Positions 1,573 to 40,383 of a stretch of DNA of 40,383 nucleotides are shown one piece after another (the stretch's first letter is position 1; every line of letters starts with the position of its first letter). The notes under the pieces are model-generated. The model saw only the letters and a program-made list of their open reading frames with translations, did not search any database and was not told the origin of the DNA. The stretch covers positions 1 to 40,383 of the IMG/VR virus record IMGVR_UViG_3300025108_004173. One strand, written 5' to 3'. Origin of the DNA: a virus. The translations under genes and the position numbers were made by a program.

Positions 1573-1573
1573 T

Positions 1574-7750: not shown

Positions 7751-7751
7751 T

Positions 7752-9009: not shown

Positions 9010-9010
9010 C

Positions 9011-10000: not shown

Positions 10001-10006
10001 GACGGT

Positions 10007-10321: not shown

Positions 10322-10322
10322 G

Positions 10323-26697: not shown

Positions 26698-26719
26698 TCT
26701 GGAAGTAGTTACCTAAATT

Positions 26720-27094
26720 ATGATATTAACAGAATCAACCTTTTTAATGTATGCAATGAAACACTATGAGAATCCTCACTGTTCAGACATATCTGAATTC
26801 GAGGAAGACATGAAACGTTTCCAATATCTCAGGAAACTCTTTGGTCGATATAGACAAGAGAACGAGTTGAAGGAAAGGTTGATTCTGAATCATATGATAA
26901 TCATATATAATGTGTTTGGGGAACAGGGAACGCCCATGTTATTCATGAAGTTGCCTGAATACCACGAATATTTAAAACCTTTTGTAGAGTACTTAAACTA
27001 TATGCCAACAATCATACGGTATGATGGCATTGGAATACATCAAGATAGTATCAATGCAGACAGGCATATAATTCAAGTACTTAAGGAAATCTGA
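26720..27094 (+). CDS. Conserved T4-like phage protein, unknown function
   Basis: 124 residues, helical: LTESTFLMYAMKHYENPHC, FEEDMKRFQYLRKLFGRYR, ERLILNHMIIIYNVFGEQG. I recall close counterparts in marine T4-like phages, but no function. The last base of the stop is the first base of the next ATG (TGATG). Expressed with virion genes, so perhaps an assembly or structural protein. Confidence 0.6.
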   Translation: MILTESTFLMYAMKHYENPHCSDISEFEEDMKRFQYLRKLFGRYRQENELKERLILNHMIIIYNVFGEQGTPMLFMKLPEYHEYLKPFVEYLNYMPTIIRYDGIGIHQDSINADRHIIQVLKEI

Positions 27095-27474
27095 TGGTAG
27101 TCGATTTATTTCTAGTATATTCTTTCATAAGGAAACTTGTCACACCATTTGACAAGTGGCCTGCATATGAACAGGGTATCATAGATGATAAGGGTAAGAT
27201 CCTTATCAAGAGAAAGAACTTTCTGAAGAAAGCTCAACGTGATGCGTTTGGGATCTTCGATCTCATGATATTGAACCTCAAAAAAATACTTGCAAAAGTC
27301 CCTGGCGGACAATCAAAACTTGCATCCTATGCGGCTGCATTGTTTTTAATTAGAGAATGGCAACACTTTAGTGATGATTCGCTGTTGACAGAAGAAGTCA
27401 ATGATGATATAATAGAGGAGTCACTAAAGAGATTTGAATGTGAATATTTGAATCCTCTACTAAAGAAGGAATAG
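27094..27474 (+). CDS. Conserved T4-like phage protein, unknown function
   Basis: 126 residues: LFLVYSFIRKLVTPFDKWPA, NFLKKAQRDAFGIFDLMILN, KVPGGQSKLASYAAALFLIR. Mixed helical protein without signal or membrane span, also familiar from marine T4-like phages and without assigned function. A perfect TTGACA-17-TATAAT promoter match lies inside its 3' end. Three nt separate it from the next gene. Confidence 0.6.
   Translation: MVVDLFLVYSFIRKLVTPFDKWPAYEQGIIDDKGKILIKRKNFLKKAQRDAFGIFDLMILNLKKILAKVPGGQSKLASYAAALFLIREWQHFSDDSLLTEEVNDDIIEESLKRFECEYLNPLLKKE
27385..27413 (+). promoter_or_regulatory. Sigma70-type promoter match within coding sequence
   Basis: Exact TTGACA at 27385-27390, a 17-nt spacer and exact TATAAT at 27408-27413. 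Predicted start near 27420, 58 nt before the next ATG. It is a full consensus match, but inside a coding region and upstream of genes that look virion-related, so function is uncertain. Confidence 0.4.
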
Positions 27475-27477
27475 ATT

Positions 27478-27675
27478 ATGGCAATTGGTATGGCATTTAT
27501 CGCAAGGTATTTTGGTGGTAGTACACCCCATGCGATTAGAGAATATTATGGGGTGGCGCCTGGCATCCCATCTAGTGGAACAATTAGATGGTCGGATTTC
27601 GACACGTATTTTCGTAACAGGGGTATTACGCCTGGCTTGACATCAGTGGAATTCGAATTAACTGCAGACGTATAA
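27478..27675 (+). CDS. 65-residue small protein, unknown
   Basis: MAIGMAFIARYFGGSTPHAI, then IREYYGVAPGIPSSGTIRWS and DFDTYFRNRGITPGLTSVEF. No family recognised. The SSGTIRWSDF element recalls short segments found in phage tail-associated proteins, a weak similarity. Tight spacing (3 nt upstream, 9 nt downstream) supports expression with the neighbouring virion-related genes. Confidence 0.55.
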   Translation: MAIGMAFIARYFGGSTPHAIREYYGVAPGIPSSGTIRWSDFDTYFRNRGITPGLTSVEFELTADV

Positions 27676-27684
27676 GGTAAAGTA

Positions 27685-28110
27685 ATGGCAAAGGGAACCA
27701 TATTCAGAAAACCAGAGACTGCCAAAGAGTGGTCAAACCCTGAAGTACTCATTCAGGGTTATGGTCGTTTGAACCTTGAGACTTTGAAAAAGAAGATCGC
27801 CAAGGATCATGCAGACGCAATGCGTTTTTTGAAGATGGAGAACTATGATAATTACGAATATGCCATGAAAAACCTCATGGAGTTTGTTCAAGCAGTCTTA
27901 GATGTTGAGACTGAAATGAACGCACCCAGATACAAACGTATGAAAAAGAGACTTAAAGAAGAACCTGCTAACAATGTAGGTGGTGGTAAAGTCGCTGGAC
28001 TGGGAGTTGGTGCACAAGGAGAGCCTGGCTTTACTAAGGCACAACAACGCAGATGGGTTAAGAAAAATCGTTCTAAAAGAAAAGATTTTGCCCAATTTAT
28101 AAATAAGTAG
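27685..28110 (+). CDS. Conserved phage protein with basic C-terminus
   Basis: 141 residues: KGTIFRKPETAKEWSNPEVL at the start, a helical middle (NLETLKKKIAKDHADAMRFL), a glycine-rich hinge (NNVGGGKVAGLGVGAQGEPG) and a basic end (QRRWVKKNRSKRKDFAQFIN). The end could bind nucleic acid. I recall similar proteins in marine T4-like phages with no assigned role. The late promoter for the prohead core gene sits in its last codons. Confidence 0.6.
   Translation: MAKGTIFRKPETAKEWSNPEVLIQGYGRLNLETLKKKIAKDHADAMRFLKMENYDNYEYAMKNLMEFVQAVLDVETEMNAPRYKRMKKRLKEEPANNVGGGKVAGLGVGAQGEPGFTKAQQRRWVKKNRSKRKDFAQFINK
28098..28105 (+). promoter_or_regulatory. T4-type late promoter TATAAATA
   Basis: Exact T4 late box in the final codons of the upstream gene. 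Its last base is 33 nt before the ATG at 28138, identical to the spacing at 18629 and 12767. The leader contains AGGAG as ribosome site. Confidence 0.8.
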
Positions 28111-28137
28111 ACAATTAACTTTTATTAGGAGATAACA

Positions 28138-28440
28138 ATGTCTGTAGAAAGTATTATTCAGTCGGCACTAGCGAATAATCCAATGCAAATGAAAAAAGAT
28201 TTTGCGGATGAAATTTCTGGACGTGTACAGACTGCACTAGAAGCAAAGTATCAAGAAATGGTTGATGCACAGGAATCAGTTGAAGAGTCCGTAGAGGACA
28301 TGATCGACGCAGAACTCGACGAAGGCAAAGTCAAAGAAGAAGATGACATGGAGTCTGATGAAGACGAAGATGATGATGAAATGCCTAAGAAGAAGAAAAA
28401 GTCTGACGACGATGAAGACGAAGATGAGGACGACGAATAG
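28138..28440 (+). CDS. 67: Prohead core protein, gp67-like
   Basis: 100 residues. An N-terminal helical half (SVESIIQSALANNPMQMKKD) leads into a very acidic tail of Asp/Glu runs broken by a KKKKK block and ending EDEDEDDE. T4 gp67 (PIP) is a small prohead core protein of the same build, needed for head-length control and cut by gp21. Marine T4-like phages have a similar acidic protein annotated as prohead core. Perfect late promoter and AGGAG ribosome site indicate strong late expression. Gene order differs from T4, where gp68, gp21, gp22 and gp23 follow; here spanins follow. Confidence 0.65.
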   Translation: MSVESIIQSALANNPMQMKKDFADEISGRVQTALEAKYQEMVDAQESVEESVEDMIDAELDEGKVKEEDDMESDEDEDDDEMPKKKKKSDDDEDEDEDDE

Positions 28441-28451
28441 TCGTTAAATGA

Positions 28452-28943
28452 ATGTTTGCCTCAATTAAAATTGCTGCAGTAATTGTAGTCCTCGCTACCG
28501 GCGGGGTGGGTTACCTATACGTAACCAAACTTCAATCAGACTTAGAAACTGCACGTGCAAACGTGGCTAAGATGGAAGTTGCAGTTCAGACTGCAGAGGC
28601 AAGCATCAAAACTCTCCAAGAAGATACACAAAGACTTAATGAGTTAAATCAGGGTCTACAGAATAATCTTCAGAGAGCGGAAGAGTACGGAGACGATCTC
28701 CGTCTAAAACTCCAGAGACATAATTTAACTGCAAGGGCTTTGAAAGACCCTGCTGATCTTGAAGGATCTATGAATGGTGCGACAGCAAAATTATGGCGTG
28801 AGTTGGAACAAGACACTGGTGGTAGTGGGAACGCTCCTCTGCCTAACTGGTTGCAGTCTGGTGACTCCAGAACCGAAAGTAGTGACGGTGACGGAGATAC
28901 AGAAGACGACAATTCCGACAGTAGCACGTCCAAAACCGATTAA
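28452..28943 (+). CDS. i-spanin (Rz-like) lysis protein
   Basis: 163 residues. N-terminal signal-anchor (IKIAAVIVVLATGGVGYLYV, residues about 5-24), then a long periplasmic coiled coil (LQSDLETARANVAKMEVAVQ through LNELNQGLQNNLQRAEEYGD) and an acidic, Ser-rich tail. This is the i-spanin plan: an inner-membrane subunit that spans the periplasm and joins the outer-membrane lipoprotein to disrupt the outer membrane at lysis. Decisive context: the next gene, encoding a lipoprotein, begins inside it in another frame, as in Rz/Rz1 pairs. No holin or endolysin is recognised nearby. Confidence 0.75.
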   Translation: MFASIKIAAVIVVLATGGVGYLYVTKLQSDLETARANVAKMEVAVQTAEASIKTLQEDTQRLNELNQGLQNNLQRAEEYGDDLRLKLQRHNLTARALKDPADLEGSMNGATAKLWRELEQDTGGSGNAPLPNWLQSGDSRTESSDGDGDTEDDNSDSSTSKTD

Positions 28944-29157
28944 CTTATCTGACACACGACTATATGTCGTTAATGAGGGTAACATTGACGAATTCTTAGA
29001 GGAGTTCGAAAGTGTTAATGGTAATCGTGCGTTTGTTGCATTCTCAGTTAAAGATTATGAGAACCTTGCCCTTAATATTTCTGAACTGCGACGATATATA
29101 AAGCAACAAGGTGAAATTATTTTGTATTATGAGGACGCTGTGAAACCTTCCCCTTGA
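28774..29157 (+). CDS. o-spanin (Rz1-like) outer-membrane lipoprotein
   Basis: 127 residues. Starts within the i-spanin gene in a different frame (170-nt overlap) with AAGGA about 7 nt upstream of ATG 28774. Lipoprotein signal: WNKTLVVVGTLLCLTGCS, lipobox LTGC, so the mature protein starts at Cys26 and is lipid-anchored. The early mature region is Pro-rich (TPEPKVVTV, IPTVARPKP), typical of Rz1. The C-terminal 70 residues (EFLEEFESVNGNRAFVAFSV) extend beyond the usual short Rz1, which is unusual. It completes the two-component spanin and points to a Gram-negative host. Confidence 0.78.
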   Translation: MVRQQNYGVSWNKTLVVVGTLLCLTGCSLVTPEPKVVTVTEIQKTTIPTVARPKPINLSDTRLYVVNEGNIDEFLEEFESVNGNRAFVAFSVKDYENLALNISELRRYIKQQGEIILYYEDAVKPSP

Positions 29158-29163
29158 TAAATA
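29156..29163 (+). promoter_or_regulatory. Possible late promoter (GATAAATA)
   Basis: Same one-mismatch box as at 12767, overlapping the o-spanin TGA stop. But a terminator-like hairpin follows at 29204-29223, and no ATG lies at the 33-nt spacing (nearest at 29201), so support is weaker than for the other sites. Confidence 0.35.
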
Positions 29164-29203
29164 TCCTTAGTAATTAGGTATACTATTATTTGCGTAACAA
29201 ATG

Positions 29204-29223
29204 AAACCCCGATTAGGGGTTTT
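29204..29223 (+). terminator. Hairpin resembling an intrinsic terminator after the spanin genes
   Basis: AAACCCC (29204-29210), loop GATTA, GGGGTTT (29216-29222) and one more T: a perfect 7-bp stem with a short T run. It follows the late lysis genes by about 50 nt. The U-tract is short, so termination may be partial. Its presence argues that the next gene starts downstream of it rather than at the ATG at 29201. Confidence 0.5.
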
Positions 29224-29248
29224 ATCAATTCCATCAAGGGGAATGAAC

Positions 29249-29704
29249 TTGTCAGAAGAATTAAACCAATTAAAAATAGACATTGCTTTAATTAAAAAAG
29301 ACATCCGTCAAATCGAGCGTTTCTTCAACAAGGTTGATGAGACTGTCGACGCTATGGCTGGGATTGCAAAAGATCTGGCAGTTCAAGAACAGAAGAATGT
29401 TAACGCTAATCAAAAAATAAAGTTTCTTGATGCCAAGATTGATGAGAACACCAAGTCTCAGCTTGAAGCACGTCTTGTATTGGCAGACCAATTGGATGAT
29501 ACACGTATAGAATTTCGTGATGCACTCGCCAAGGTCTCCTCTGTGGACGAGGACGGTATCAATGAGGTATTCGAAAAGATCCAGTCGTTAGAAGACCGTG
29601 TAGTCGATCTAGAACGTGCCAGATGGTACGGTATGGGAGTCGCAGGCACAATTATCTTTATCCTAGGCATAATTTCTTTGGACTTTCTGCCTTTTAATGG
29701 TTGA
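29249..29704 (+). CDS. Coiled-coil protein with C-terminal membrane anchor
   Basis: About 151 residues from TTG 29249, which has AAGGGGA with ideal spacing; ATG 29243 (same frame) is too close to that site and ATG 29201 would place the hairpin inside the gene. Residues up to about 125 are heptad-rich (LSEELNQLKIDIALIKKDIR, then EKIQSLEDRVVDLERARWYG). The end is one hydrophobic helix (GVAGTIIFILGIISLDFLPF), giving a tail-anchored layout with a cytoplasmic rod. Function unknown; placement beside spanins could hint at lysis or membrane control. Its stop is part of the primase promoter. Confidence 0.6.
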   Translation: MSEELNQLKIDIALIKKDIRQIERFFNKVDETVDAMAGIAKDLAVQEQKNVNANQKIKFLDAKIDENTKSQLEARLVLADQLDDTRIEFRDALAKVSSVDEDGINEVFEKIQSLEDRVVDLERARWYGMGVAGTIIFILGIISLDFLPFNG

Positions 29705-29729
29705 CAAAGCTTTAATCTAGTGTTATAAT
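29701..29729 (+). promoter_or_regulatory. Strong sigma70-type promoter for primase and the nucleotide-metabolism genes
   Basis: Exact TTGACA at 29701-29706, a 17-nt spacer and exact TATAAT at 29724-29729: full consensus in a true intergenic position. Predicted start near 29736, about 33 nt before the primase ATG at 29769. The host polymerase should read it immediately on infection. The downstream genes (primase, ThyX, NrdA, NrdB, glutaredoxin, ALAS, PP-loop) have no clear terminator between them. Confidence 0.85.
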
Positions 29730-29768
29730 CTCTCTAACAGTTAAACACACTTGGATACTTTTTATATT

Positions 29769-30782
29769 ATGGTTGACTTTACAGATCTTCAGTACGCCCA
29801 GATGTTGTCTGGGCGCTTACAGAACTTTCGCATACGCAACACAAATCCCTACAAGATAAACTTTAGATGTCCTATCTGCGGTGACTCTCAGAAGTCACGC
29901 AGTAAGTCACGTGGTTGGTTGTTAGAGAAGGAGAACAAGTTCTTCTACTATTGTCACAACTGTGGCGCCAGTCACAACTTCTCCAACTTCCTCAAGACTG
30001 TAGACCACCTCATGTACAATGATTGGGTGGCTGAGAAGTTTATCAAAAAGGATAAAAAAGAACCTTTTTCTTTCAAAGATACTACCGAAAAGAAACTGAC
30101 TGTTCTAAAGAAAAATCCCCTACGTTCTATAAAAAAAGTCTCTCAGTTGCATCACAATCACGCAATCAAAAGATATATAAGTAAGAGACACATTCCGGCA
30201 CGTCACCATTATCGTCTGTATTATACCAAGACGTTCAAGAAATGGATTAACGGAATTATACCTAATAAATTCGACAACGTAGAGAAGGACGATCCTCGCC
30301 TAATTATCCCATTCATTGATCAAAACGGTAAAGTATTTGGGGTATCGGCACGTGGATTTGATCCTAATGGTCTTCGTTATTTGACTATAATGTTCGAAGA
30401 TCGTCCAAAGGTTTTCGGTCTCGATACTGTTGACTTTAGTAAAGAGTATCATGTTGTTGAAGGAGCTATTGACAGTTTATTCCTCTCGAATGCGGTTGCG
30501 ATGGCAGGCGCTGAAGGAAACGTCGACGGTTTCGATAATATTGAGAATGCTGTATTTGTCTTTGACGCAGAACCACGCAACAAAGAGATACACAAACGAA
30601 TGGAGAAGGTGATCAACAAAGGATACAGAATTTGTATCTGGCCTGAACAGACTTCGACAGTCGGTAAAGACATAAATGAGATGTATCTAAATGGCATGTC
30701 AAATGTCGAAGATATAATACGTGACAATACGTTCAAAGGTTTAGAAGCAACCTTTAGATTACAAAAGTGGAGAAGAACATGA
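29769..30782 (+). CDS. 61: DNA primase gp61
   Basis: 337 residues from ATG 29769; a TTG at 29751 is in frame but lies closer to the promoter start site. An N-terminal zinc-binding domain is evident, with CPIC (34-37) and CHNC (62-65), used for template recognition. The catalytic TOPRIM-like part includes HVVEGAIDSLFLSNAVAM (EGxxD) and AVFVFDAEPRNKEI (DxE-type acidic cluster). It makes RNA primers with gp41. Its 3' end overlaps thyX by 4 nt (ATGA). Confidence 0.9.
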   Translation: MVDFTDLQYAQMLSGRLQNFRIRNTNPYKINFRCPICGDSQKSRSKSRGWLLEKENKFFYYCHNCGASHNFSNFLKTVDHLMYNDWVAEKFIKKDKKEPFSFKDTTEKKLTVLKKNPLRSIKKVSQLHHNHAIKRYISKRHIPARHHYRLYYTKTFKKWINGIIPNKFDNVEKDDPRLIIPFIDQNGKVFGVSARGFDPNGLRYLTIMFEDRPKVFGLDTVDFSKEYHVVEGAIDSLFLSNAVAMAGAEGNVDGFDNIENAVFVFDAEPRNKEIHKRMEKVINKGYRICIWPEQTSTVGKDINEMYLNGMSNVEDIIRDNTFKGLEATFRLQKWRRT

Positions 30783-31474
30783 AAGTTAGATTAATATCTT
30801 GCAGTCAACCTATCAAGGACAGCATCATTGGATTAGACGATGTACAGGACTTGATTGCATACTGTGCCAGAGTATCTAACCCCGATAACCAACTGAACTC
30901 TAAGACTTCAGACAAATTACTCAACTACCTTGCAAAACATAAACATTGGTCACCGTTTGAAATGGTGAACGCATGTATCGAAATTGAAACAACTCGTGAT
31001 ATTGCAAGACAACTACTACGACATCGTTCTATGTGTTTTCAAGAATTTTCTCAGAGATATGCTGATCCTGTAAAAGAACTGGAATTCGTAAAACGTGAAT
31101 GTCGTTTACAAGATCCAAAGAACCGCCAGAACTCTATCGAAATAGAAGGTGACCCCTCCTTGATTGACAATCAGCAGAACCAAGACTTGATTGCTGAGTG
31201 GAATCGTAAACAGACTGGTGTAATTGAATTGGTGAAGAAGAACTACCAATGGGCAGTTGAACAGGGTATTGCAAAAGAACAAGCACGTGCCCTACTGCCA
31301 GAAGGTTTGACTGTATCAAGACTATATGCAAACGCAACAATCCGTTCGTGGATTCATTACGTTGACTTGCGTTCTGCCAATGGTACACAAAAAGAACATA
31401 TGGAACTTGCGAAGGCAGTAGGTAAGGCAATTACTGAAATATTCCCTCTCGCAGACAATTACATTAACAACTAG
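30779..31474 (+). CDS. thyX: Flavin-dependent thymidylate synthase ThyX
   Basis: 231 residues from ATG 30779 (GGAGAAG upstream; an in-frame ATG at 30767 is further from it). Makes dTMP from dUMP with FADH2 and methylene-tetrahydrofolate. The ThyX signature RHRxxSxxxxSxR appears as RHRSMCFQEFSQRY with Cys instead of the first Ser, and the C-terminal ARALLPEGLTVSRLYANATI and RSWIHYVDLR segments match the family. Replaces the ThyA-type enzyme of T4. Part of the dNTP-supply operon with nrdA and nrdB. Confidence 0.92.
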   Translation: MKVRLISCSQPIKDSIIGLDDVQDLIAYCARVSNPDNQLNSKTSDKLLNYLAKHKHWSPFEMVNACIEIETTRDIARQLLRHRSMCFQEFSQRYADPVKELEFVKRECRLQDPKNRQNSIEIEGDPSLIDNQQNQDLIAEWNRKQTGVIELVKKNYQWAVEQGIAKEQARALLPEGLTVSRLYANATIRSWIHYVDLRSANGTQKEHMELAKAVGKAITEIFPLADNYINN

Positions 31475-31490
31475 AACATTAGGATCAACT

Positions 31491-33809
31491 ATGACGCAAG
31501 TAACCAAGAGAGACGGCTCTAAAGAACTCCTCGACATCGAAAAACTTCACAAGGTAGTTTTTCACGCATGTGATGACATCACTGGTGTAAGTCCAAGTGA
31601 AGTAGAAATTAAAAGTCAAATTCAATTTTATGATGGTATAACGACGAAGGAAATCCAAGAGACGTTAATCAAGGCTGCGGCTGATCTGATTGATGAGGAC
31701 ACACCGAACTACCAATACGTTGGTGGACGTTTGATTAACTATGCACTTCGTAAAGAAGTATATGGCCAGTACGAACCATGCACTGTAAAGGAATTGGTTG
31801 TCAGGAACATCGAAAGTGGTTTCTATGATGAAGAACTTATAGATAAGTATAATGACGAAGAGTGGGCAAAGATTGACTCATTCATCAAACATGGTCGTGA
31901 TGAGAACCTAACATATGTTGCCATGGAACAACTACGTGGTAAATACCTATGTCAGAACCGTGTCACAGGAGAGATCTTTGAGACTCCACAGATGTGTTAT
32001 GCATTAATTGCAGCCACGTTGTTCGCAGACTATCCTAAAGAAGAAAGATTAAAATGGGCGAAAGATTATTATGACGCTATTAGTTTACACGATATTAGCC
32101 TTCCTACGCCCGTCATGGCCGGTGTCCGTACGCCTATGCGTCAGTTTTCCTCTTGCGTTCTTATTGAGTCTGGGGATAGCCTTGATAGTATCAACGCAAC
32201 TAGTTCTTCTATTGTCAAATATGTAAGTCAGAAAGCAGGTATTGGTATCGGTGGTGGTCAGATCCGAGCGATTGGATCTCCCATTCGTAAAGGTGACGCA
32301 TACCATACAGGCATCATTCCTTTCTACAAACACTTCCAGTCTGCAACTAAGTCCTGTTCACAGGGCGGTGTTCGTGGTGGTGCGGCGACTATCTACTATC
32401 CTATCTGGCACTATGAAGTCGAAGATATGTTGGTATTGAAGAACAACAAGGGTACAGAAGAGAACCGTGTGCGTCATATGGATTATGGTGTGCAGTTCAA
32501 CAAACTCATGTACGAACGTCTCATCTCTGGTGGTGACATTACTTTGTTCTCTCCTAGTGACGTGCCTGGCTTGTATGATGCATTCTTTGCAGATCAAGAT
32601 GCCTTCAAAGAAATCTATGAACGTGCAGAACGTAATACACGACTTCGTAAGAAAACTATCAAGGCAATTGATTTGTTCAGTTCCTTTATGGAAGAGCGTA
32701 AGAACACAGGACGTATCTATCTACAGAACGTAGACAATGCAAATGATCATGGTTCATTCCTACCAGAGGTTGCACCAATCAGACAATCGAATCTTTGTGC
32801 CGAAATAGACTTGCCAACCAAACCATTACATGATATAAATGACCCTGATGGTGAGATTAGTCTCTGTACACTGTCTGCAATCAACTGGGGTAATGTTCGT
32901 TCACCAAGAGACTTTGAACGTGCCTGTACTCTCGCTGTTCGTGGACTGGATGCGTTGTTGTCTTATCAGAACTATCCTATCCTTGCGGCACAACTCTCTA
33001 CGGAGAAACGTAGACCTCTTGGAGTGGGCATTATTAACTTCGCATACTTCATGGCGAAAAACGATTTGACTTATCAGGACATCACCCCACAAGGTTTGTC
33101 ACTGATTGATGAGTACGCTGAAGCATGGTCATACTATCTGATCAAAGCATCTGCAGATCTCGCAGCTGAGAAGGGCGCACCAAGTGGTGTTATGGAAACA
33201 AAATATGGACATGGTATCACACCAAACATGACATACAAAACTGATCTTGATGAGTTGGTTAAACATAAAGAACGTATGCCATGGAAGAGTCTGCGTAATC
33301 AGTTGAAGAAGACTGGTATCAGAAACTCTACTCTGATGGCGTTGATGCCTAGTGAAACAAGTGCGCAGGTTGCAAATGCGACGAATGGTATCGAACCACC
33401 TCGTTCATTGATTTCAGTAAAACAGTCAAAACATGGCGTTTTGAAACAAGTTGTGCCTGAGTACAAAAGATTAAAGAATAAATATGATCTCCTATGGGAT
33501 CAAAAGTCTCCTGTAGGTTACCTTAAAATTATGGCTGTACTACAGAAATATATTGACCAAGGTATTAGTATCAACACCAGTTATAACCCTATCTTCTCAG
33601 AGAATGAAAAAATTTCTATGAGTGAGATGTTGCAACACGTATTAATGTTTTACAAGTACGGTGGAAAACAACTGTACTACTTCAATACGTATGACGGTCA
33701 GGGCGAAGTTGATGTCGACAAGATGATGCAAGAGACACCGATAGAACGATCTGAGTTCGAAGGTTCGGACGAAGAATATGACGATTATTGCGAAAGCTGC
33801 ACGATATAG
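31491..33809 (+). CDS. nrdA: Class Ia ribonucleotide reductase, alpha subunit
   Basis: 772 residues, full length. Contains an N-terminal ATP-cone-like region (TKRDGSKELLDIEKLHKVVF), active-site cysteines in QFSSCVLIESGDSLDSI, SNLCAEIDLPTKP (Cys/Glu radical pair) and SLCTLSAINWGNV, MALMPSETSAQVANATNGIE, and a redox-active tail ending CESCTI, which is reduced by glutaredoxin or thioredoxin. Converts NDPs to dNDPs with NrdB. No intein or intron disrupts it. Followed by nrdB and a glutaredoxin gene, a complete set. Confidence 0.96.
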   Translation: MTQVTKRDGSKELLDIEKLHKVVFHACDDITGVSPSEVEIKSQIQFYDGITTKEIQETLIKAAADLIDEDTPNYQYVGGRLINYALRKEVYGQYEPCTVKELVVRNIESGFYDEELIDKYNDEEWAKIDSFIKHGRDENLTYVAMEQLRGKYLCQNRVTGEIFETPQMCYALIAATLFADYPKEERLKWAKDYYDAISLHDISLPTPVMAGVRTPMRQFSSCVLIESGDSLDSINATSSSIVKYVSQKAGIGIGGGQIRAIGSPIRKGDAYHTGIIPFYKHFQSATKSCSQGGVRGGAATIYYPIWHYEVEDMLVLKNNKGTEENRVRHMDYGVQFNKLMYERLISGGDITLFSPSDVPGLYDAFFADQDAFKEIYERAERNTRLRKKTIKAIDLFSSFMEERKNTGRIYLQNVDNANDHGSFLPEVAPIRQSNLCAEIDLPTKPLHDINDPDGEISLCTLSAINWGNVRSPRDFERACTLAVRGLDALLSYQNYPILAAQLSTEKRRPLGVGIINFAYFMAKNDLTYQDITPQGLSLIDEYAEAWSYYLIKASADLAAEKGAPSGVMETKYGHGITPNMTYKTDLDELVKHKERMPWKSLRNQLKKTGIRNSTLMALMPSETSAQVANATNGIEPPRSLISVKQSKHGVLKQVVPEYKRLKNKYDLLWDQKSPVGYLKIMAVLQKYIDQGISINTSYNPIFSENEKISMSEMLQHVLMFYKYGGKQLYYFNTYDGQGEVDVDKMMQETPIERSEFEGSDEEYDDYCESCTI

Positions 33810-33819
33810 GGAAAAAGAA

Positions 33820-34953
33820 ATGGGCGTTTTTGACACACAAAACAAAGCAGATCACACAAAAGTAAAAATGTTTTTGGATCCCACAGGGGGCCCAACCATT
33901 CAACGTTATGATCAGTTGAAATACAAATCCTTTGATAAACTGACTGATAGTCAACTTGGTTTCTTCTGGCGTCCAGAGGAAGTTGATATCTATAAGGATG
34001 CAAAGGACTTCAAAAGTCTTACTGAACATGAACAACATATTTTTACAAGTAACCTAAAGAGACAGATCCTATTGGACTCTGTACAAGGTCGTGCGCCCGT
34101 AGAGGCGTTCGCACCTATTGTAAGTTTACCAGAGATTGAGAACTGGATACAGACATGGACATTCTCTGAGACAATCCACAGTCGTTCGTACACACACATC
34201 ATTCGTAACGTGTACAGCAACCCAAGTAAAGTCTTTGATGAACTTATGGACATCCAAGAGATTGTTGAATGTGCAGATGATATCTCTTACTATTACGACA
34301 AATTAATTGAAATGAGTATGTGGTACAACTTGTTAGGTGAAGGTACACATCAGATTAATGGCACACGTAATGTGAAAGTAGATCTCTACGAACTGAAAAA
34401 ACTTCTTTGGTTGACATTGATGAGTGTGAACATTCTTGAAGGCGTACGTTTTTACGTATCTTTTGCATGTTCATGGGCATTCGCAGAACTCAAGAAGATG
34501 GAAGGTAATGCGAAGATCATTAAATTGATTGCACGTGATGAGAACCTTCACTTGGGTTCTACTCAGTTGATGTTACGTACACTCAAGAATAAAGACGATC
34601 CAGACTTTGCAAAGATCGCAGAAGAAACAAAAGACGAATGTATTAAAATGTTCGTCGACGCAGTAGACCAAGAGAAAGCATGGGCTAACTATTTGTTTAA
34701 AGATGGTTCCATGATTGGTCTTAACGCAGCCTTACTAAGTGATTATATTGAGTATATCTGCACTCGACGTATGAAACACGTTGATCTTGAATCTCCTTAC
34801 AATGTTAAAAACAATCCTCTTCCTTGGACACAGAAGTGGATCTCAGGTGCAGAAGTCCAAGTCGCACCACAAGAGACAGAGATTACATCTTATGTTTCTG
34901 GTGGAACTAAACAAGACGTATCAGACGAAACATTCAAGGGGTTCAGCTTATGA
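33820..34953 (+). CDS. nrdB: Class Ia ribonucleotide reductase, beta subunit
   Basis: 377 residues from ATG 33820, which has AGGGA upstream; an in-frame ATG at 33778 overlaps nrdA. Provides the di-iron tyrosyl radical for NrdA. Diagnostic segments: EQHIFTSNLKRQILLDSVQG, FSETIHSRSYTHIIRNVY (radical Tyr region), DIQEIVECADDISYYYD, LEGVRFYVSFACSWAFAELK and IARDENLHLGSTQLM with the iron-ligand Glu and His. The end overlaps the glutaredoxin gene (ATGA). Confidence 0.95.
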   Translation: MGVFDTQNKADHTKVKMFLDPTGGPTIQRYDQLKYKSFDKLTDSQLGFFWRPEEVDIYKDAKDFKSLTEHEQHIFTSNLKRQILLDSVQGRAPVEAFAPIVSLPEIENWIQTWTFSETIHSRSYTHIIRNVYSNPSKVFDELMDIQEIVECADDISYYYDKLIEMSMWYNLLGEGTHQINGTRNVKVDLYELKKLLWLTLMSVNILEGVRFYVSFACSWAFAELKKMEGNAKIIKLIARDENLHLGSTQLMLRTLKNKDDPDFAKIAEETKDECIKMFVDAVDQEKAWANYLFKDGSMIGLNAALLSDYIEYICTRRMKHVDLESPYNVKNNPLPWTQKWISGAEVQVAPQETEITSYVSGGTKQDVSDETFKGFSL

Positions 34954-35180
34954 CAGTAGAAATATACGGTAAAGACAATTGTGCATATTGCACGAAGGCA
35001 ATTAATCTTGCGGAAATTCAACATATGAATTTTACCTATAAGAAACTTGGTGTGGACTTTAATCGTGACGAAATGTTATCCATGTTTCCATCTGCAAGAA
35101 CTTTCCCTCAAATTAAAGTTGATGGACATTCGATTGGTGGGTATGAACAGTTCATGGAGTATGTCAAGAAGGCAGCCTAA
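34950..35180 (+). CDS. Glutaredoxin (NrdC-type)
   Basis: 76 residues. IYGKDNCAYCTKAINLAEIQ carries the CxxC active site (CAYC). ARTFPQIKVDGHSIGGYEQF carries the cis-Pro and GG glutathione-binding region. Full-length glutaredoxin fold. Overlap with nrdB and position in the operon indicate that it reduces the NrdA tail disulfide. A second, more divergent glutaredoxin is encoded at 38364. Confidence 0.92.
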   Translation: MTVEIYGKDNCAYCTKAINLAEIQHMNFTYKKLGVDFNRDEMLSMFPSARTFPQIKVDGHSIGGYEQFMEYVKKAA

Positions 35181-35219
35181 ATACTTCTAGATATTCTAGA
35201 GTAATGGTAAAGCGAAAAA

Positions 35220-36413
35220 ATGATATCAAAAGATTATTTTGAAGACGTAATTCATCAATTTAAAACCGAAGGCAAATATAGAGTCTTCAACGATATACTC
35301 AGAGAGCGGGGGAAGTTTCCCCGCTCAATCTGGTATGGAAAATATGCACCAAAAAACATTGTTAACTGGTGTTCTAATGACTATCTCGGCATGGGACAAA
35401 ATCAATATGTTATTGATGCCATGCATACCGCACTAGATCAGACTGGTGCAGGTTCTGGTGGAACCAGAAATATCGGTGGTACATCACATTATCATGTGAC
35501 ACTTGAAGCAGTTCTTGCACAACACCACCAAAAAGAAAGTGCACTATTATTCTCCAGTGCATATGTTGCAAATGAGTGGTCACTCATTGCACTCAGTCGT
35601 ATCATCCCCAACATAAGATTTATTTCAGATGACAAGAATCATGCCTCATTGATTATGGGTATGAAACATAGTCGTGCGAGTAAGATGATCTTCAAACACA
35701 ATAACATGGAAGATCTAGAACACTGTCTCAAACTGGCACAGATGGAAAACAAAACTCCATGTGTCGTGTTTGAATCTGTGTATTCTATGGATGGTGACGT
35801 AGGGAAAATTGAAGAAATATGTGATCTTGCAGATAAATATGGTGCAATCACTTATATCGATGAAGTACATGCAGTGGGTCTATATGGAGACACTGGTGGT
35901 GGTTATTGTGAAAAGTTAGGTTTAGTAGAGAGGGTAGATATTATAAATGGAACACTGGGAAAAGCCTTTGGGGTTCAAGGTGGTTATATTGCTGGGGATA
36001 GTATTGTCGTTGACGCTATTAGGGCCTTGGCTTCTGGGTTCATCTTTACAACAAGTATCTCGCCCGTCATCTGCGCTGGAGCAATCGCCTCAATCAAATA
36101 TCTCAGTGACCACACTACCATCCGTCAAGTCCATCAAGAAAGAGCAAGCACCCTAAAAGAAATGTTGAAGTACGCAGGCATTCCAGTACATGAGAGTGCC
36201 TGTACTCATATCGTTCCTGTGATGGTAAACAATGCATTCAAGTGTAAAGAAGCATCTGACGATCTTCTAAATAATCATGGGATTTATATCCAACCTATTA
36301 ATTATCCCACTGTCGAAGAAGGAACCGAAAGATTGCGAATTGCACCAACCCCATTCCATGATGATGTGATGATGGTGGAACTCGTTCAAGCCTTGAAGAA
36401 AGTTTTGTTATGA
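35220..36413 (+). CDS. hemA: 5-aminolevulinate synthase (ALAS)
   Basis: 397 residues, full length for bacterial ALAS of the alphaproteobacterial C4 (Shemin) pathway: glycine + succinyl-CoA to 5-aminolevulinate, the committed step of heme synthesis. Signature segments: [67 protein letters not shown] and [16 protein letters not shown], with Lys248 the PLP Schiff-base lysine, the same number as in Rhodobacter ALAS as I recall. [15 protein letters not shown] favours ALAS over related KBL/BioF enzymes. It follows glutaredoxin and is coupled (ATGA) to a PP-loop gene. An 8-10 bp stem lies at 35304-35326. Functionally it links to heme oxygenase and bilin reductase at 4688-5897. Confidence 0.9.
35304..35326 (+). 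other. Strong GC-rich stem-loop inside the ALAS gene
   Basis: GAGCGGGG pairs perfectly with CCCCGCTC, extendable by G-T and A-T pairs to a 3-nt loop. It starts 85 nt into the gene (residues about 29-36) in an otherwise modest-GC region. No T run follows, so it is not an intrinsic terminator; it could slow translation or protect an mRNA end. Confidence 0.5.
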
Positions 36414-37096
36414 TTTATGAAAACAAATTTGGTAAGGTAGATATTCTACCAGATCCAGATTTTTGGGATGGACATATTATTGGTATTGCCATGTCAGGCG
36501 GTGCAGATAGTCTTATGTTATGTTACCTTGTTGCAAACACAATCAAGAAACTAAAACTAAATTCTTCTATACAACCTTACAATGGGTATGACATTCATGT
36601 ACCACATGATTCTAATGCCGCCGTAAAAACTCTCCCTACTCTTATCAGAAAATTTCCTACTGTAGATATCAAGTGGCCTATCTCTACAGTGTTTAATTCT
36701 AATGGTGAGGATAACAAAATGGATTATATCACAAAACTCAGGAAGGCGCTTGCAGGTGCAACATTCACGAGACACATTACTGGGATAACTCTTGGGCCAC
36801 CATACAAGGTGCAGAACAGTTGGCCAAAAACGGTGAGTAACCAGAGGATTCGTAGAATACCAAATTACATGAGTGAGTCAGAAAGTGCATGGGATGACTG
36901 GCCTTTAGAGACTACTCCATTCAAGAATATAGATAAAAGATTTGTAATACAATGTTACAAAGACTTTAAACAAATGAAATTGTTTCATCAAACAGTTTCG
37001 TGCACCACACCAACCAATGGAAATAAACCATGTGGTAAGTGTTGGTGGGATTACGAGAGGGAATGGGCCCTCAACGAAGTACAGAAAAGATTATAA
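36410..37096 (+). CDS. Second QueC-like PP-loop ATPase
   Basis: 228 residues, start overlapping the ALAS stop (ATGA). [20 protein letters not shown] has the SGGxDS ATP-binding loop. The C-terminus [20 protein letters not shown] has Cys-x9-Cys-x2-Cys, one Cys fewer than the QueC-like zinc site and than the paralogue at 7752, with Trp-Trp-Asp at the missing position. Only the PP-loop and the C-terminal region look alike between the two, so they may use different substrates. Coupling to ALAS is curious and may reflect operon assembly rather than pathway. Confidence 0.68.
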
Positions 37097-37154
37097 CATG
37101 AATCAATTAGAATCAGCATTCTTTGGAAAGAGGATCTGGGAAAAGGAAAGTAAA

Positions 37155-37574
37155 ATGAGTAAAATTAAAAAGGCGTTTTGGTTTGTCTGTGGTATCCTGT
37201 GTTTAGGTATTGCTTATCTGGGAGTTATTCTGCCAGGCATTCCTTGGAGTACTCCTATTCTAGGTGCAGCGTTCTGTTTCGCAAAGTCTAGTGAGAAGTT
37301 CCACAACTGGATCATGAACCATAAGACCTTTGGCCCGTTTATCACAGAGTGGCAGACTTATAAAGTATATCCACAGAAGGCAAAGTATTTGATGATGGCA
37401 GTAATGTCAACATCCTTGGCGGCAATGTATTTCGGTACAGGCAATCCAAAGGCAACCTTATACCTGTTCATCTTGTTCGCATTAATTGTGACATGGGCAT
37501 GGAGATTTCCTGGCTCAAAAGAAGAGTCGCAGAGACGAATTGATGCAGGTGAAAAACTGGGTTGGTTTAAATAA
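37155..37574 (+). CDS. DUF454 (YbaN-like) inner-membrane protein
   Basis: 139 residues from ATG 37155, chosen for its AAGGAAAG ribosome site and because DUF454 proteins start close to the first helix; an in-frame ATG at 37098 would add 19 residues. First helix FWFVCGILCLGIAYLGVILP, then the family pattern GIPWSTPILGAAFCFAKSSE and FHNWIMNHKTFGPFITEWQ, and two more helices (YLMMAVMSTSLAAMYFG and ATLYLFILFALIVTWAW). Function of DUF454 is not known; a host-derived membrane protein in a phage is notable. One-base overlap with the next gene (TAATG). Confidence 0.8.
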   Translation: MSKIKKAFWFVCGILCLGIAYLGVILPGIPWSTPILGAAFCFAKSSEKFHNWIMNHKTFGPFITEWQTYKVYPQKAKYLMMAVMSTSLAAMYFGTGNPKATLYLFILFALIVTWAWRFPGSKEESQRRIDAGEKLGWFK

Positions 37575-37777
37575 TGGATGAGAGGGAGAAAACCATCAGG
37601 GACTTGAAGGTTAGGATAGAGGAGTTGCGTGTTCGTACTGGATACTACAACAACCCACCATCCAAACCCAACACTGATGACATTCCCCCTCTAACACCAA
37701 AGAGTCAGGCTCGTAAGAATGTTGCCACATCAGAGATGGATTCGTTAAAAGCAAAACTCATGGCAAAAAAGACTTGA
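37574..37777 (+). CDS. 67-residue small coiled-coil protein
   Basis: MDEREKTIRDLKVRIEELRV forms a short coiled coil, followed by a Pro-rich linker (NNPPSKPNTDDIPPLTPKSQ) and a basic helix (MDSLKAKLMAKKT). Not recognised. The stop sits over the -35 element of the next promoter. Confidence 0.55.
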   Translation: MDEREKTIRDLKVRIEELRVRTGYYNNPPSKPNTDDIPPLTPKSQARKNVATSEMDSLKAKLMAKKT

Positions 37778-37802
37778 CAAGACTTTTAATGTAGGATATA
37801 AT
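37774..37802 (+). promoter_or_regulatory. Strong sigma70-type promoter for the 37840-39734 genes
   Basis: Exact TTGACA at 37774-37779, a 17-nt spacer and exact TATAAT at 37797-37802. Predicted start near 37809, which lies after the ATG at 37804; translation of the next gene must therefore begin later, at 37840. Very similar in build to the primase promoter at 29701. Confidence 0.82.
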
Positions 37803-37839
37803 TATGGATGATTTGAAATTTACAACGTGCGGAGATTTT

Positions 37840-38196
37840 ATGAAAGATCAAGAACAAGACAAATATGCTGTCGTGACAGTCATATCTCAATTCAGGCAAC
37901 GGTATGTAATGCCTGTGAGTAAACTACAAGAAAAGAATACAACCATTAGTCTGAAGGATCATCCAGAACAGATCGTTCCTTGGGCAGAAGACGCAGTCAC
38001 ATGCGAAGAATCAAAAGAGTTCTCTCAAAAATGGTTGGGTGAACAGATTGTGGATACCTTTATTCTTGATGAAGAAAGAGCTCTTCAGTTGTTTGATCGT
38101 GATAATTCATACCTGTTGGAATGGACAACGGAAAAGAAATTAGAAAGTATTCAAGATTGTTGGGAGAAAAAGAAAGATGTCAACTCTAAGAAATAA
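37840..38196 (+). CDS. Conserved early phage protein, unknown function
   Basis: 118 residues from ATG 37840 with GGAG 7 nt upstream; the in-frame ATG at 37804 precedes the expected transcript start and is rejected. KYAVVTVISQFRQRYVMPVS, LKDHPEQIVPWAEDAVTCEE, FSQKWLGEQIVDTFILDEER and LFDRDNSYLLEWTTEKKLES: a compact alpha/beta protein with no recognised motif. First gene of an early transcription unit, so possibly a host-takeover or replication accessory protein. Confidence 0.6.
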   Translation: MKDQEQDKYAVVTVISQFRQRYVMPVSKLQEKNTTISLKDHPEQIVPWAEDAVTCEESKEFSQKWLGEQIVDTFILDEERALQLFDRDNSYLLEWTTEKKLESIQDCWEKKKDVNSKK

Positions 38197-38374
38197 ATTT
38201 CATACGTATTTGGAAAAGTATAAAACGGCAATTCAGTCAGAAATTGAATTAGGGCCTGATCACGAAGATACTAAGAATTATTTTCTTATAGCTAATCAGA
38301 CAAAGAGATCGCTCCAAACTGATTTGCAGAAAGCAGAAGAATATCTAGAAAGTTTGGTAACAGATGATGGTTGA
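38177..38374 (+). CDS. 65-residue helical protein, unknown
   Basis: MSTLRNKFHTYLEKYKTAIQ followed by IANQTKRSLQTDLQKAEEYL, mostly amphipathic helix. It overlaps the preceding gene by 20 nt and the glutaredoxin gene by 11 nt. No family recognised. Confidence 0.5.
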   Translation: MSTLRNKFHTYLEKYKTAIQSEIELGPDHEDTKNYFLIANQTKRSLQTDLQKAEEYLESLVTDDG

Positions 38375-38624
38375 AATTTTTGGAACTCCGAACTGCGTTA
38401 ACTGTGAGAAGGCGATGCGGATTTCAAAGGAATATGGATATGACTACGAGTACAAGAACATCACGTATAAACAATATCGTGACGAACTTGAGTCGTATGT
38501 CGGTGTTGCAGAGTATTACAATTTACCACTAGTCTTTGTTAATAAAAAGTACGTTGGACATTACTCTGAATGGGCGCAATATATTGAAGATCATATGGGG
38601 GGATTCGGGGATCAACCGATTTAA
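38364..38624 (+). CDS. Second glutaredoxin-like protein
   Basis: 86 residues (start may be the second of two adjacent ATGs). VEIFGTPNCVNCEKAMRISK carries a CxxC site (CVNC), and YNLPLVFVNKKYVGHYSEWA has the cis-Pro loop and a YVGH variant of the GG motif. It differs from the NrdC-type copy at 34950 (CAYC, GGYEQF), so it may serve another electron acceptor. Located in the early group after the 37774 promoter. Confidence 0.85.
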   Translation: MMVEIFGTPNCVNCEKAMRISKEYGYDYEYKNITYKQYRDELESYVGVAEYYNLPLVFVNKKYVGHYSEWAQYIEDHMGGFGDQPI

Positions 38625-38627
38625 GTT

Positions 38628-38855
38628 ATGGCAGGTAGAAAACTCAGAGAAGAAGCAGTTGGTGAACTGCAATTAGAAAAGAACGAGTTGGTTAGAGAAA
38701 ACAAAGATCTCGTTTTTGAAAATGAATTAATTAGACGACAGAATACTATGTTGATGGAGACATTGGAAGCAGTTACAACTGATGAAATTATCTCAGATCC
38801 TAATGTTCTCTTTCGTCTCAAAACTGTTTTAAAAAATATTGAGGAAATGCAATGA
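38628..38855 (+). CDS. 75-residue coiled-coil protein
   Basis: Heptad-rich MAGRKLREEAVGELQLEKNE, LVRENKDLVFENELIRRQNT, then a C-terminal VLFRLKTVLKNIEEMQ helix. No known family. ATGA overlap with the next gene. Confidence 0.55.
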   Translation: MAGRKLREEAVGELQLEKNELVRENKDLVFENELIRRQNTMLMETLEAVTTDEIISDPNVLFRLKTVLKNIEEMQ

Positions 38856-39070
38856 CGTGGGTATTAGTATTCGTCTATCTTTATGGTGGGGTGTCTTATG
38901 CGGAAACGTATGATGAATATCCCTCTATGGTGACATGCTTTCAAGCCAGAGAAGAACTTGGTGCGGCCCAATCTGGACGCAGAGGGTATTTTCCAAATGG
39001 TCAACAGGCGCTGTGCATTCCGTACGATATCACAGCTGATGGAGTTACTCCATACGAACTAGATGAATAA
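38852..39070 (+). CDS. Small secreted protein with signal peptide
   Basis: 72 residues: signal-like WVLVFVYLYGGVSYAE with probable cleavage after SYA, then about 55 mature residues including YPSMVTCFQAREELG and QQALCIPYD, with two Cys likely to form a disulfide in the periplasm. I recall similar short proteins in marine T4-like phages. Unknown function. Overlaps phoH by 8 nt. Confidence 0.6.
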   Translation: MTWVLVFVYLYGGVSYAETYDEYPSMVTCFQAREELGAAQSGRRGYFPNGQQALCIPYDITADGVTPYELDE

Positions 39071-39734
39071 ACTTCCTCAACTCAAAAAAATTCGTCCTCT
39101 TACAGACAATCAACAACTAACGTTTGATGCTTGGGAAAGAGGAAACAATCTGGTACTTGCAGGATCTGCAGGTACAGGTAAAACCTTCCTTGGATTGTAT
39201 CTTGCACTGAAAGATGTGTTTGATGGAAACACTCCATATAGGAAGGTTATTGTCGTACGTTCAGTCGTACCTACAAGAGATATGGGATTCTTGCCTGGCG
39301 ATGAACAGGAAAAGAAAGACGCATACACTCGTCCCTACATTGGCATCACTGCAGAACTCTTTGGGAGATCTGATGCATGGTTAGGACTTCAAGTGAGTGA
39401 GAAAGTGCAGTTTGAATCCACATCTTTTATTAGGGGATTGACGTGGGACGATGCAATCATCGTAGTTGATGAAATGCAGAACCTCAACTTCCACGAACTT
39501 GACTCTGTCATAACACGTGTAGGTGAGAATACTAAACTCATCCTCTGTGGTGATTATTACCAGTCTGATTTCCACTGGGATACAGACAAAAAAGGGATCA
39601 GTAAATTTATCAAGATTATGAAAATGCTCGATAGGTTTAAAGTGATTGAATTCACATGGGAAGACATCGTAAGATCTGATCTTGTGAAAGATTACATTAT
39701 GGTTAAAGAACAAATGAAAATAAAAGGAGTATAA
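39063..39734 (+). CDS. phoH: PhoH-like P-loop ATPase
   Basis: 223 residues. LVLAGSAGTGKTFLGLYLAL contains Walker A (GSAGTGKT, residues 34-41). VIVVRSVVPTRDMGFLPGDE and DAIIVVDEMQNLNFHELDSV (Walker B) are PhoH hallmarks, and TKLILCGDYYQSD completes the helicase-like core. phoH is common in marine phages; RNA-related roles and phosphate-stress links have been proposed but its job in phage is unclear. It ends the early group begun at 37840. Confidence 0.9.
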   Translation: MNKLPQLKKIRPLTDNQQLTFDAWERGNNLVLAGSAGTGKTFLGLYLALKDVFDGNTPYRKVIVVRSVVPTRDMGFLPGDEQEKKDAYTRPYIGITAELFGRSDAWLGLQVSEKVQFESTSFIRGLTWDDAIIVVDEMQNLNFHELDSVITRVGENTKLILCGDYYQSDFHWDTDKKGISKFIKIMKMLDRFKVIEFTWEDIVRSDLVKDYIMVKEQMKIKGV

Positions 39735-39737
39735 TAC

Positions 39738-39842
39738 TTGCAACGCCGTGTAAGAAAGAAAACATCGATTGGCAAATCGGTTCGATCAAAACTTTTACGT
39801 AAAGGGAATGTACGTAAAAAATATAGAGGACAGGGAAAGTAA
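39738..39842 (+). CDS. 34-residue highly basic micro-protein
   Basis: TTG start with AGGAG 8 nt upstream. Nearly half the residues are Lys or Arg (QRRVRKKTSIGKSVRSKLLR then KGNVRKKYRGQGK). Fits exactly between phoH and the next ATG (stop TAA, one base, ATG). I recall small KKTSIGxS...YRGQG proteins in other T4-like phages. It probably binds nucleic acid. Confidence 0.65.
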   Translation: MQRRVRKKTSIGKSVRSKLLRKGNVRKKYRGQGK

Positions 39843-40043
39843 ATGTTTAGCAAACAGTGCAAGGCTCACTTAGAAGAAGTGGGTGAGACTGGACTTCAAC
39901 ATATGGGGAAGGCACTAAAGATTGCAGTTACGCTGCAACTACTCGTTCCAGTCGTATTAGTTCATGCAGTCGCACCACGTTTTTTCACGAAGACTGCTTC
40001 AACTGTAATGAAAGATATCGTTAAAGATAGGAATAAAACATGA
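39843..40043 (+). CDS. DUF6356-like membrane-associated protein
   Basis: 66 residues. HLEEVGETGLQHMGKALKIA and a hydrophobic stretch (VTLQLLVPVVLVHAVAPRFF) followed by TKTAS match the short DUF6356 pattern (HL...YxxH...H...P) as I remember it, a family found in proteobacteria and phages. One membrane helix. ATGA overlap with the next small gene. Function not known. Confidence 0.6.
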   Translation: MFSKQCKAHLEEVGETGLQHMGKALKIAVTLQLLVPVVLVHAVAPRFFTKTASTVMKDIVKDRNKT

Positions 40044-40132
40044 CTTTAATTTTTGAAAGAGTGGGCAACACTGTGTACGCACGAGAGTTTGGTTCACACC
40101 CTAGTACGAGGTGGGTATATAAAACGTTATGA
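40040..40132 (+). CDS. 30-residue micro-protein
   Basis: MTLIFERVGNTVYAREFGSH followed by PSTRWVYKTL. Bracketed by two ATGA overlaps, which argues it is translated. The VYARE(F/V)G segment occurs, from memory, in short proteins of related phages, here probably shortened. No function known. Confidence 0.55.
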   Translation: MTLIFERVGNTVYAREFGSHPSTRWVYKTL

Positions 40133-40383
40133 AACGATTTATCTTCGATGTAGATGGGACACTCACACCTAGTCGTTCAAAGATCAATACAGAATTTCTG
40201 GATTGGTTTCTTGATTTTTGCGACAGAGAAAAAGTGTGGTTAGTAACTGGTTCTGATTACCCAAAAACTCTTGAGCAGTTGGGTAAAGAACTATGTGAAA
40301 AAGTTGTGACTGTTTATAACTGTTCTGGTAACGATGTCTTCTTTAAAGGAAAACGTGTTAACACTAAATCGTTTGAACCGCCC
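40129..40383 (+). CDS. HAD-superfamily phosphatase (5' part)
   Basis: Truncated by the window end after 85 residues. FIFDVDGTLTPSR is HAD motif I, with Asp nucleophile and acid/base Asp, and VWLVTGSDYPKTLEQLG is motif II (Thr/Ser). The DGTLTPSR form and the following VYNCSGNDVFFKGK resemble the phosphomannomutase-type HAD group, so a sugar phosphatase or mutase role is plausible. Start overlaps the previous stop (ATGA). Confidence 0.82.
   Translation, partial: MKRFIFDVDGTLTPSRSKINTEFLDWFLDFCDREKVWLVTGSDYPKTLEQLGKELCEKVVTVYNCSGNDVFFKGKRVNTKSFEPP

Follow-up and report, generated by a model that had tools for sequence, protein, structure and literature searches.

Wegner et al. (2024; PMC11480375) described viral 5-aminolevulinate synthase (ALAS) genes on phage contigs of marine and freshwater origin. 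Some of these genes stand by themselves, others belong to a three-gene cassette or share a broken cassette with hemO and pcyA/X. In the portions of that paper drawn on here, one phage ALAS was shown to produce 5-ALA and to complement an E. coli strain auxotrophic for it, and the heme oxygenase (HO) and bilin reductase of the same phage are active as well; co-expression of phage HO and ferredoxin-dependent bilin reductase (FDBR) left the porphyrin build-up caused by the viral ALAS (vALAS) undiminished. Many viral ALAS proteins are without one and/or the other of the heme-feedback residues His342 and Cys400, the phages were assigned to alpha- and gammaproteobacteria, and the metagenomic viral reductases cluster within PcyX (PMC11480375). 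Viral alaS has also been followed in a 2026 estuary study (PMC13390420, excerpt).

Among the FDBRs, PcyA needs Glu76, His88 and Asp105, of which Glu76 is PcyA-specific, is needed for 18-vinyl reduction and is missing from PcyX (PMC10151467, excerpt), while Asp55 has been named as the specific catalytic residue of PcyX (PMC11480375). Structure/function relations in this enzyme family are, according to the portion of a further study consulted, not reliably predictable (PMC13193486). A set with the same three functions, likened here by description, is the hemO-pcyA-alaS island of Bradyrhizobium ORS278 named in PMC11480375; unlike the set studied here, it is bacterial, occupies one genomic island and includes a phytochrome gene.

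The stretch analysed here, called the window, is IMG/VR virus record IMGVR_UViG_3300025108_004173, positions 1–40,383 (40,383 b). It resembles the sets of PMC11480375 in combining a phage ALAS with HO and bilin reductase, in the "broken" (non-adjacent) arrangement of the set and in being a metagenomic phage contig; its ALAS groups with viral ALAS, has Lys341 at the place of His342 and possesses no residue 400. It differs from the sets in the consulted text of that paper in its lysine-type reductase, in a DUF454 gene near ALAS, and in the position of ALAS beside nrdAB and a glutaredoxin gene; the terms DUF454, YbaN, nrdA and ribonucleotide reductase do not appear in its main text. Relatives of the window phage may be among the supplementary contigs of that study, and its PcyX-clustering viral reductases may include lysine-type sequences. 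The co-occurrence of the three genes, to which the initial annotation drew attention, was therefore already in print. The phenomenon is known, and the window is a variant of it, set apart by the lineage of its reductase, which is unusual, and by DUF454 as a recurrent partner; no description of this lineage and partner was found in the literature searched, which was covered in part and with supplements outside its scope.

Gene content and reproducibility of the phage genome

The window record is a bacterial virus with T4-type genes, encoding a late-transcription coactivator, gp59, gp32, uvsX and a DnaB-type helicase. Its uvsX is closest to that of Synechococcus phage BUCT-ZZ01 (58%), followed by those of Sinorhizobium phages (about 53%). 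The features discussed below are as follows.

4688–5224, + strand: heme oxygenase, 178 aa; PF01126, 65.3 bits (cut-off 23); solved heme oxygenases matched at E 8e-12
5217–5897, + strand: ferredoxin-dependent bilin reductase, 226 aa, lysine type; PF05996, 76.2 bits (cut-off 31)
5376–5378, + strand: codon of reductase residue Lys54, which occupies the PcyA Glu76 / PcyX Asp55 position
31491–33809, + strand: nrdA, class Ia ribonucleotide reductase alpha (profile search); upstream neighbour of ALAS on the same strand
33778–34953, + strand: nrdB, class Ia ribonucleotide reductase beta (profile search)
34950–35180, + strand: glutaredoxin-like protein; overlaps nrdB and ends 39 b before ALAS; glutaredoxin models matched, all under their cut-offs
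35220–36413, + strand: viral ALAS, 397 aa; ATG start, no internal stop; assigned by TIGR01821, active-site residues and tree
36240–36242, + strand: codon of Lys341 of ALAS, aligned to the heme-feedback residue His342 of R. capsulatus ALAS
36410–37096, + strand: PP-loop / QueC-like protein between ALAS and DUF454; PF06508, E 1.1e-4
37098–37574, + strand: DUF454 (YbaN-like) membrane protein; probable start at 37098 (ORF listed from 37017), a start conserved in close relatives
37774–37802, + strand: perfect sigma-70-like promoter match, TTGACA-17-TATAAT, downstream of DUF454; consensus match only

The HO and reductase genes overlap by 8 b. ALAS lies about 30 kb from this pair, and the two gene neighbourhoods differ, one being nrdAB-glutaredoxin and the other replication genes. 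A separate record of 117,770 b, IMGVR_UViG_3300006990_000013, is 99.9% identical to the window over the two stretches compared (217–10894 and 25220–40383) and represents nearly the same phage. The FDBR-to-ALAS spacing of 30,003 b is identical in both records, which makes an assembly chimera an unlikely source of the combination. Four more IMG/VR records match one end of the window at 99.2–99.98%. By the evidence of the longer record and these four, the ALAS/HO/reductase gene set is reproducible.

Promoter-like matches in the region numbered 10, compared with 14.9 in shuffled sequence; the perfect match at 37774–37802 is a possible start of the next transcription unit. The PP-loop gene at 36410–37096 was considered as a conserved partner of ALAS and discarded, because among 80 ALAS-scan loci it was present only in two copies of the window phage (L002, L003). 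The window encodes a second QueC-like PP-loop protein (7743–8453, upstream of gp59), about 29% identical to the first over the matched part. Upstream of the HO-reductase pair, positions 466–3984 hold genes for a DegT aminotransferase, a radical SAM protein and a carbamoyltransferase, partly kept in relatives, and a sulfotransferase-family gene and a glycosyltransferase family 25 gene stand in a row at 17197–18637.

Identity of the phage 5-aminolevulinate synthase

With the NCBIfam model TIGR01821 (5-aminolevulinate synthase, EC 2.3.1.37), the ORF at 35220–36413 reached 553.1 bits, where the cut-off is 338.55 (E 3.4e-166). The solved chains nearest to it, 7x98 and 2bwn, are both ALAS. The fold family is common to ALAS, 2-amino-3-ketobutyrate CoA ligase (KBL) and BioF, and profiles of the latter two also match the ORF, but every rival profile stayed below its cut-off: KBL at 312 vs 460 bits (NF005394) and 268 vs 493 (TIGR01822), and BioF at 303 vs 426 (TIGR00858). 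Serine palmitoyltransferase models likewise matched below their cut-offs. The PLP lysine is Lys248 (codon 35961–35963), and Arg21, Thr82, Asn84, Lys248 and Thr364 of the window protein correspond to Arg21, Thr83, Asn85, Lys248 and Thr365 of R. capsulatus ALAS, residues found at these places in the window and in all 58 viral representatives. The Thr83/Asn85 pair is replaced by V/F in a KBL of Salmonella and by S/H in a BioF of E. coli. Arg21, Thr83 and Asn85, the last two of which differ in KBL/BioF, presumably bear on the choice of succinyl-CoA.

A maximum likelihood tree (quick search, 96 rows) separated 92 ALAS rows from four outgroup rows by a branch with SH-aLRT 100, the outgroup branches being long; KBL, BioF and two Omnitrophota sequences fell outside the ALAS side (100). 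The grouping with KBL or AONS that the initial annotation had named as fatal to its proposal is not seen, and its assignment of the ORF to ALAS is borne out by the profile score, the active-site residues and the tree, which together rule out a KBL or BioF identity. We regard ALAS as virtually certain, and a KBL or BioF relative as extremely improbable. PHROGs returned no family for the protein (E <= 0.01), and 19 INPHARED records matched it with at best 35% identity, the annotated ones being named KBL or BioF.

Viral ALAS sequences were merged at 93% identity into 59 clusters, the window's own cluster being shown by the window row alone, and 27 of 49 cellular ALAS clusters were entered. Rows shorter than 370 aa (L194, L196, L197, L202, L217, L273, L324 and L327) were left out, and the short outgroup rows L200, L201, L285 and L286 were kept. 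The window ALAS grouped in a set of 66 rows (SH-aLRT 99) with all 58 viral representatives, with five contigs that are catalogued as bacterial MAGs or genomes (L140–L144) and with one Pelagibacteraceae contig, entered twice (L145/L318). The viral label required eight changes on the tree, whose long branches include KBL, BioF and L164; therefore, either exchange with cells occurred or bins are mixed. A single origin of viral ALAS is not proved by this tree.

With regard to heme feedback, residue 392 of the window protein aligns to R. capsulatus 393 and the chain ends at 397, so that a residue 400 is absent as well as His342. The histidine is missing from all 58 viral representatives, but 30 of the 33 rows from cells or MAGs do not have it either, so that its absence argues only weakly for a change peculiar to phages. 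The window ALAS is probably free of heme feedback, to judge by these positions.

Several assembly loci merit separate mention. The ALAS of Neisseriaceae bacterium PsAf (L143:8001–9188, WNLJ01000010.1) is nested in the phage ALAS clade, on a stretch that carries LptD, patatin and ABC-transporter genes and in a genome with no GluTR match over cut-off, a possible case of phage-to-bacterium transfer replacing the C5 route. Phage-type ALAS with DUF454 just downstream was also found in Rhodobacteraceae, Neomarinimicrobiota and Flavobacteriales assemblies (L140, L141, L142, L144, L195). These are likely phage contigs in MAG bins, as shown only for L144, which also has T4-type primase and thyX relatives. 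Among 26 sampled Pelagibacteraceae genomes (G121, G229–G253), seven gave a strong match to phage ALAS and none a GluTR match over cut-off, which reflects either incomplete genomes or a divergent route.

Heme oxygenase and a lysine-type bilin reductase

The AF2 model of the bilin reductase has a pLDDT of 90 and a good FDBR fold, with PcyA as the best Foldseek match (E 7e-12), and by sequence the closest solved structure is PcyX (EBK42635, 5owg; E 4e-34). The place of Glu76 is the third residue of the motif HLE, established from PDB chains 2d1e and 3i95, of which 3i95 carries the title of an E76Q mutant; in 5owg the motif reads HLD at chain residue 63, which is Asp55 if an 8-residue tag offset is assumed. 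The window reductase reads HLK, with Lys54 at this place, and keeps His68 and Asp85, the equivalents of His88 and Asp105.

The reductase set combined a scan with the window protein (48 loci) and the reductases of the vALAS and DUF454 records, with identical rows merged. In the alignment of 48 rows, lysine occupies the Glu76/Asp55 place in 27 of 27 sequences, these being the window reductase and the 26 closest to it whose alignment extends over the position; two more near relatives do not span it. In 5owg and the remaining phage rows the residue is Asp or Glu, with one Asn and one Ser. The asparagine and the serine belong to the phage reductases L087 and L261, while L235 is an example of the Asp type and L233 of the Glu type. 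A careful-search tree of 47 rows, without those shorter than 190 aa (L136, L137), placed the 27 lysine rows on one side of a branch that is not strongly supported (79/88) and recurred in 80% of bootstrap trees. A PcyX clade of 10 rows, 5owg and Pelagibacter phage Mosig among them (100/99), excludes the window reductase and the lysine rows. The trees hold one cyanophage PcyA and were built without alphaproteobacterial PcyA and pre-PcyA.

The initial annotation had called this protein PcyX; it remains a bilin reductase, but PcyX is ruled out by the features tested, since the protein falls outside the PcyX clade and has Lys54 instead of Asp55. It shares with PcyX the histidine and aspartate named above and, as in Mosig, a position adjoining HO, whereas its identity to the Mosig reductase is 33%. 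The protein does not match PcyA either, having lysine at the Glu76 place, although the fold and the His88 and Asp105 equivalents are kept. We accordingly treat it as an FDBR of lysine type in a separate phage lineage. Its bilin product is probably not phycocyanobilin, because lysine replaces Glu76.

Co-occurrence of the three genes

The initial annotation had proposed a search of viral contigs for the three genes together. The window ALAS had 154 relatives in an IMG/VR scan, and the 80 with the highest scores were taken. HO and bilin reductase were found, in whole records, in the same 10 of these best 80 of 154, and neither was found in the other 70; 59 of the 80 records are shorter than 40 kb. 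At 60 kb or more, 9 of 12 records among the best 80 of 154 hold both genes, and the other three are without HO, FDBR and DUF454.

The presence of ALAS, HO and bilin reductase in one phage genome, as first claimed, holds by profile matches in the window record. The accompanying idea that the phage encodes both entry and exit of tetrapyrrole flux and leaves the middle steps to the host stands as far as the enzymes are concerned, no tetrapyrrole enzyme beyond these three being found among the window ORFs scanned; its naming of PcyX does not. An alphaproteobacterial host with the Shemin pathway does not follow from ALAS, as was first claimed, given that one vALAS phage in PMC11480375 has a gammaproteobacterium as its assigned host; the host is not readable from ALAS when such phages are assigned to both classes. 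In Pelagibacter phage Mosig (L287), a putative ferrochelatase gene lies near the HO-reductase pair and is another phage way into heme metabolism.

DUF454 as a recurrent neighbour

The DUF454 protein of record G002, 100% identical to that of the window, scored 98.9 bits against PF04304 (cut-off 35.1), and the window protein matched NF007818, the NCBIfam YbaN equivalog, under its cut-off (E 3.4e-20; 72 vs 163). The gene lies one gene further on from ALAS in the window and directly adjoins it in many relatives. It is present in 39 of the best 80 of 154 vALAS records, and none of the 10 that carry HO and reductase is without it; among the 12 of at least 60 kb it occurs in exactly the nine with HO and reductase. 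Some of these records are close relatives of one another. Counted by ALAS clusters (93% identity) having at least 6 kb of downstream sequence, DUF454 lies within 6 kb in 16 of 28.

A reverse scan, in which the best-scoring 80 of at least 594 DUF454 relatives were taken, yielded 78 new loci. ALAS was found in 42 of them, in 35 cases directly upstream of DUF454 on the same strand, and the ALAS-DUF454 pairs include ALAS just 53–66% identical to that of the window. Six other loci from these best 80 of at least 594 lack ALAS and hold HO and reductase. Of the 78 new loci, 36 are without ALAS in the fetched stretch, two of these having it elsewhere in the record, which leaves 34 records of the best 80 of at least 594 in which no ALAS was found. 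Because 18 of the 36 hold nrdB, DUF454 may go with ribonucleotide reductase, and what it is linked to may be that enzyme or iron, not tetrapyrroles. Another phage lineage (L236, L248, L250, L252, L258 and others) has the order nrdA-nrdB-glutaredoxin-DUF454 with ALAS not nearby; for L252 and L258, ALAS occurs in another part of the record.

In bacterial and archaeal assemblies, DUF454 stands just downstream of ALAS in 5 of 67 ALAS loci, and in all five the ALAS belongs to, or clusters with, the phage clade. Around 20 alphaproteobacterial DUF454 regions, no heme family was among the 25 commonest neighbour families (of 143); 110 of 138 called ORFs were scanned with Pfam, one of which, in L341, is DUF454 itself. 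A fold search with DUF454 found nothing in the PDB at E <= 0.001, the best hit being at E 1.3, PHROGs held no family for it (E <= 0.001), and seven INPHARED records matched at no more than 39% identity, four named ybaN and three unannotated. Among titles and the opening parts of abstracts, we found no work treating DUF454 as a phage gene.

Proposed pathway and alternative explanations

We consider it fairly probable that a functional phage ALAS feeds a dispersed pathway in which host enzymes make heme and phage HO and reductase make bilin. In the infected cell, the phage-adapted ALAS would condense glycine with succinyl-CoA to 5-aminolevulinate, host enzymes would carry it to heme, and HO and the bilin reductase would convert the heme into a bilin, the set being split between ALAS and DUF454 beside nrdAB-glutaredoxin and the HO-reductase pair 30 kb away beside replication genes. 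At the level of sequence, an intact ALAS with an ALAS-type active site and intact HO and reductase are present in one reproducible genome, the set recurs in other phage records, and the feedback position is without histidine. Enzyme activity, flux into bilin, the identity of the bilin and a service of DUF454 to the pathway at the membrane are what we infer, the pathway steps resting on family knowledge and the activity of relatives. Flux to bilin in particular is called into question by the observation that phage HO and FDBR did not lower porphyrin build-up (PMC11480375, excerpt).

In the main proposal of Wegner et al. for vALAS (PMC11480375, as excerpted), the enzyme mainly upholds host heme, for respiratory cytochromes and other heme enzymes, during host shutdown, and HO and reductase would then have a separate function with another target. 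The distance of 30 kb and the differing neighbourhoods fit such a division, as does the frequent lack of HO/FDBR among the vALAS records (70 of the best 80 of 154, with 59 of the 80 under 40 kb, and 3 of the 12 of at least 60 kb). However, both genes are held by nine of these same 12 long records, and HO would destroy the heme that ALAS helps make, so that we think this account rather unlikely for the window phage. A role in iron supply, with HO freeing iron for the phage class Ia ribonucleotide reductase, ALAS replacing the tetrapyrrole and DUF454 handling iron or heme at the membrane, draws on the position of ALAS directly after nrdA-nrdB-grx and on nrdB in the 18 of 36 DUF454 loci noted above (best 80 of at least 594). 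In Avibacterium, DUF454 goes up when iron is restricted (PMC7970244, excerpt), and in the excerpted T11SS neighbourhood survey DUF454 (118 of 1,111) and haem oxygenase (137 of 1,111) are among the commonest co-occurring domains, both found with cluster 1 T11SS outer membrane proteins (PMC12282271). The survey also speaks, as independent evidence, for the link between DUF454 and phage ALAS. Yet new heme takes up as much iron as HO frees, which makes a net-iron role unlikely, and iron release needs no bilin reductase; we hold this to be quite improbable.

The dispersed pathway from ALAS to bilin may be extended, tentatively and with doubts about the whole, to T4-type phages that combine a feedback-free ALAS, HO, a lysine-class reductase making a bilin other than those of PcyA and PcyX, and a DUF454 protein that would move or shield a tetrapyrrole at the membrane. 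If true, this four-part pathway would give DUF454 a function. The lysine, at a position reported to set PcyA regiospecificity, makes the product of the phage reductase lineage directly testable, and the recurrence of DUF454 beside phage ALAS ties an uncharacterised bacterial membrane family to tetrapyrrole metabolism.
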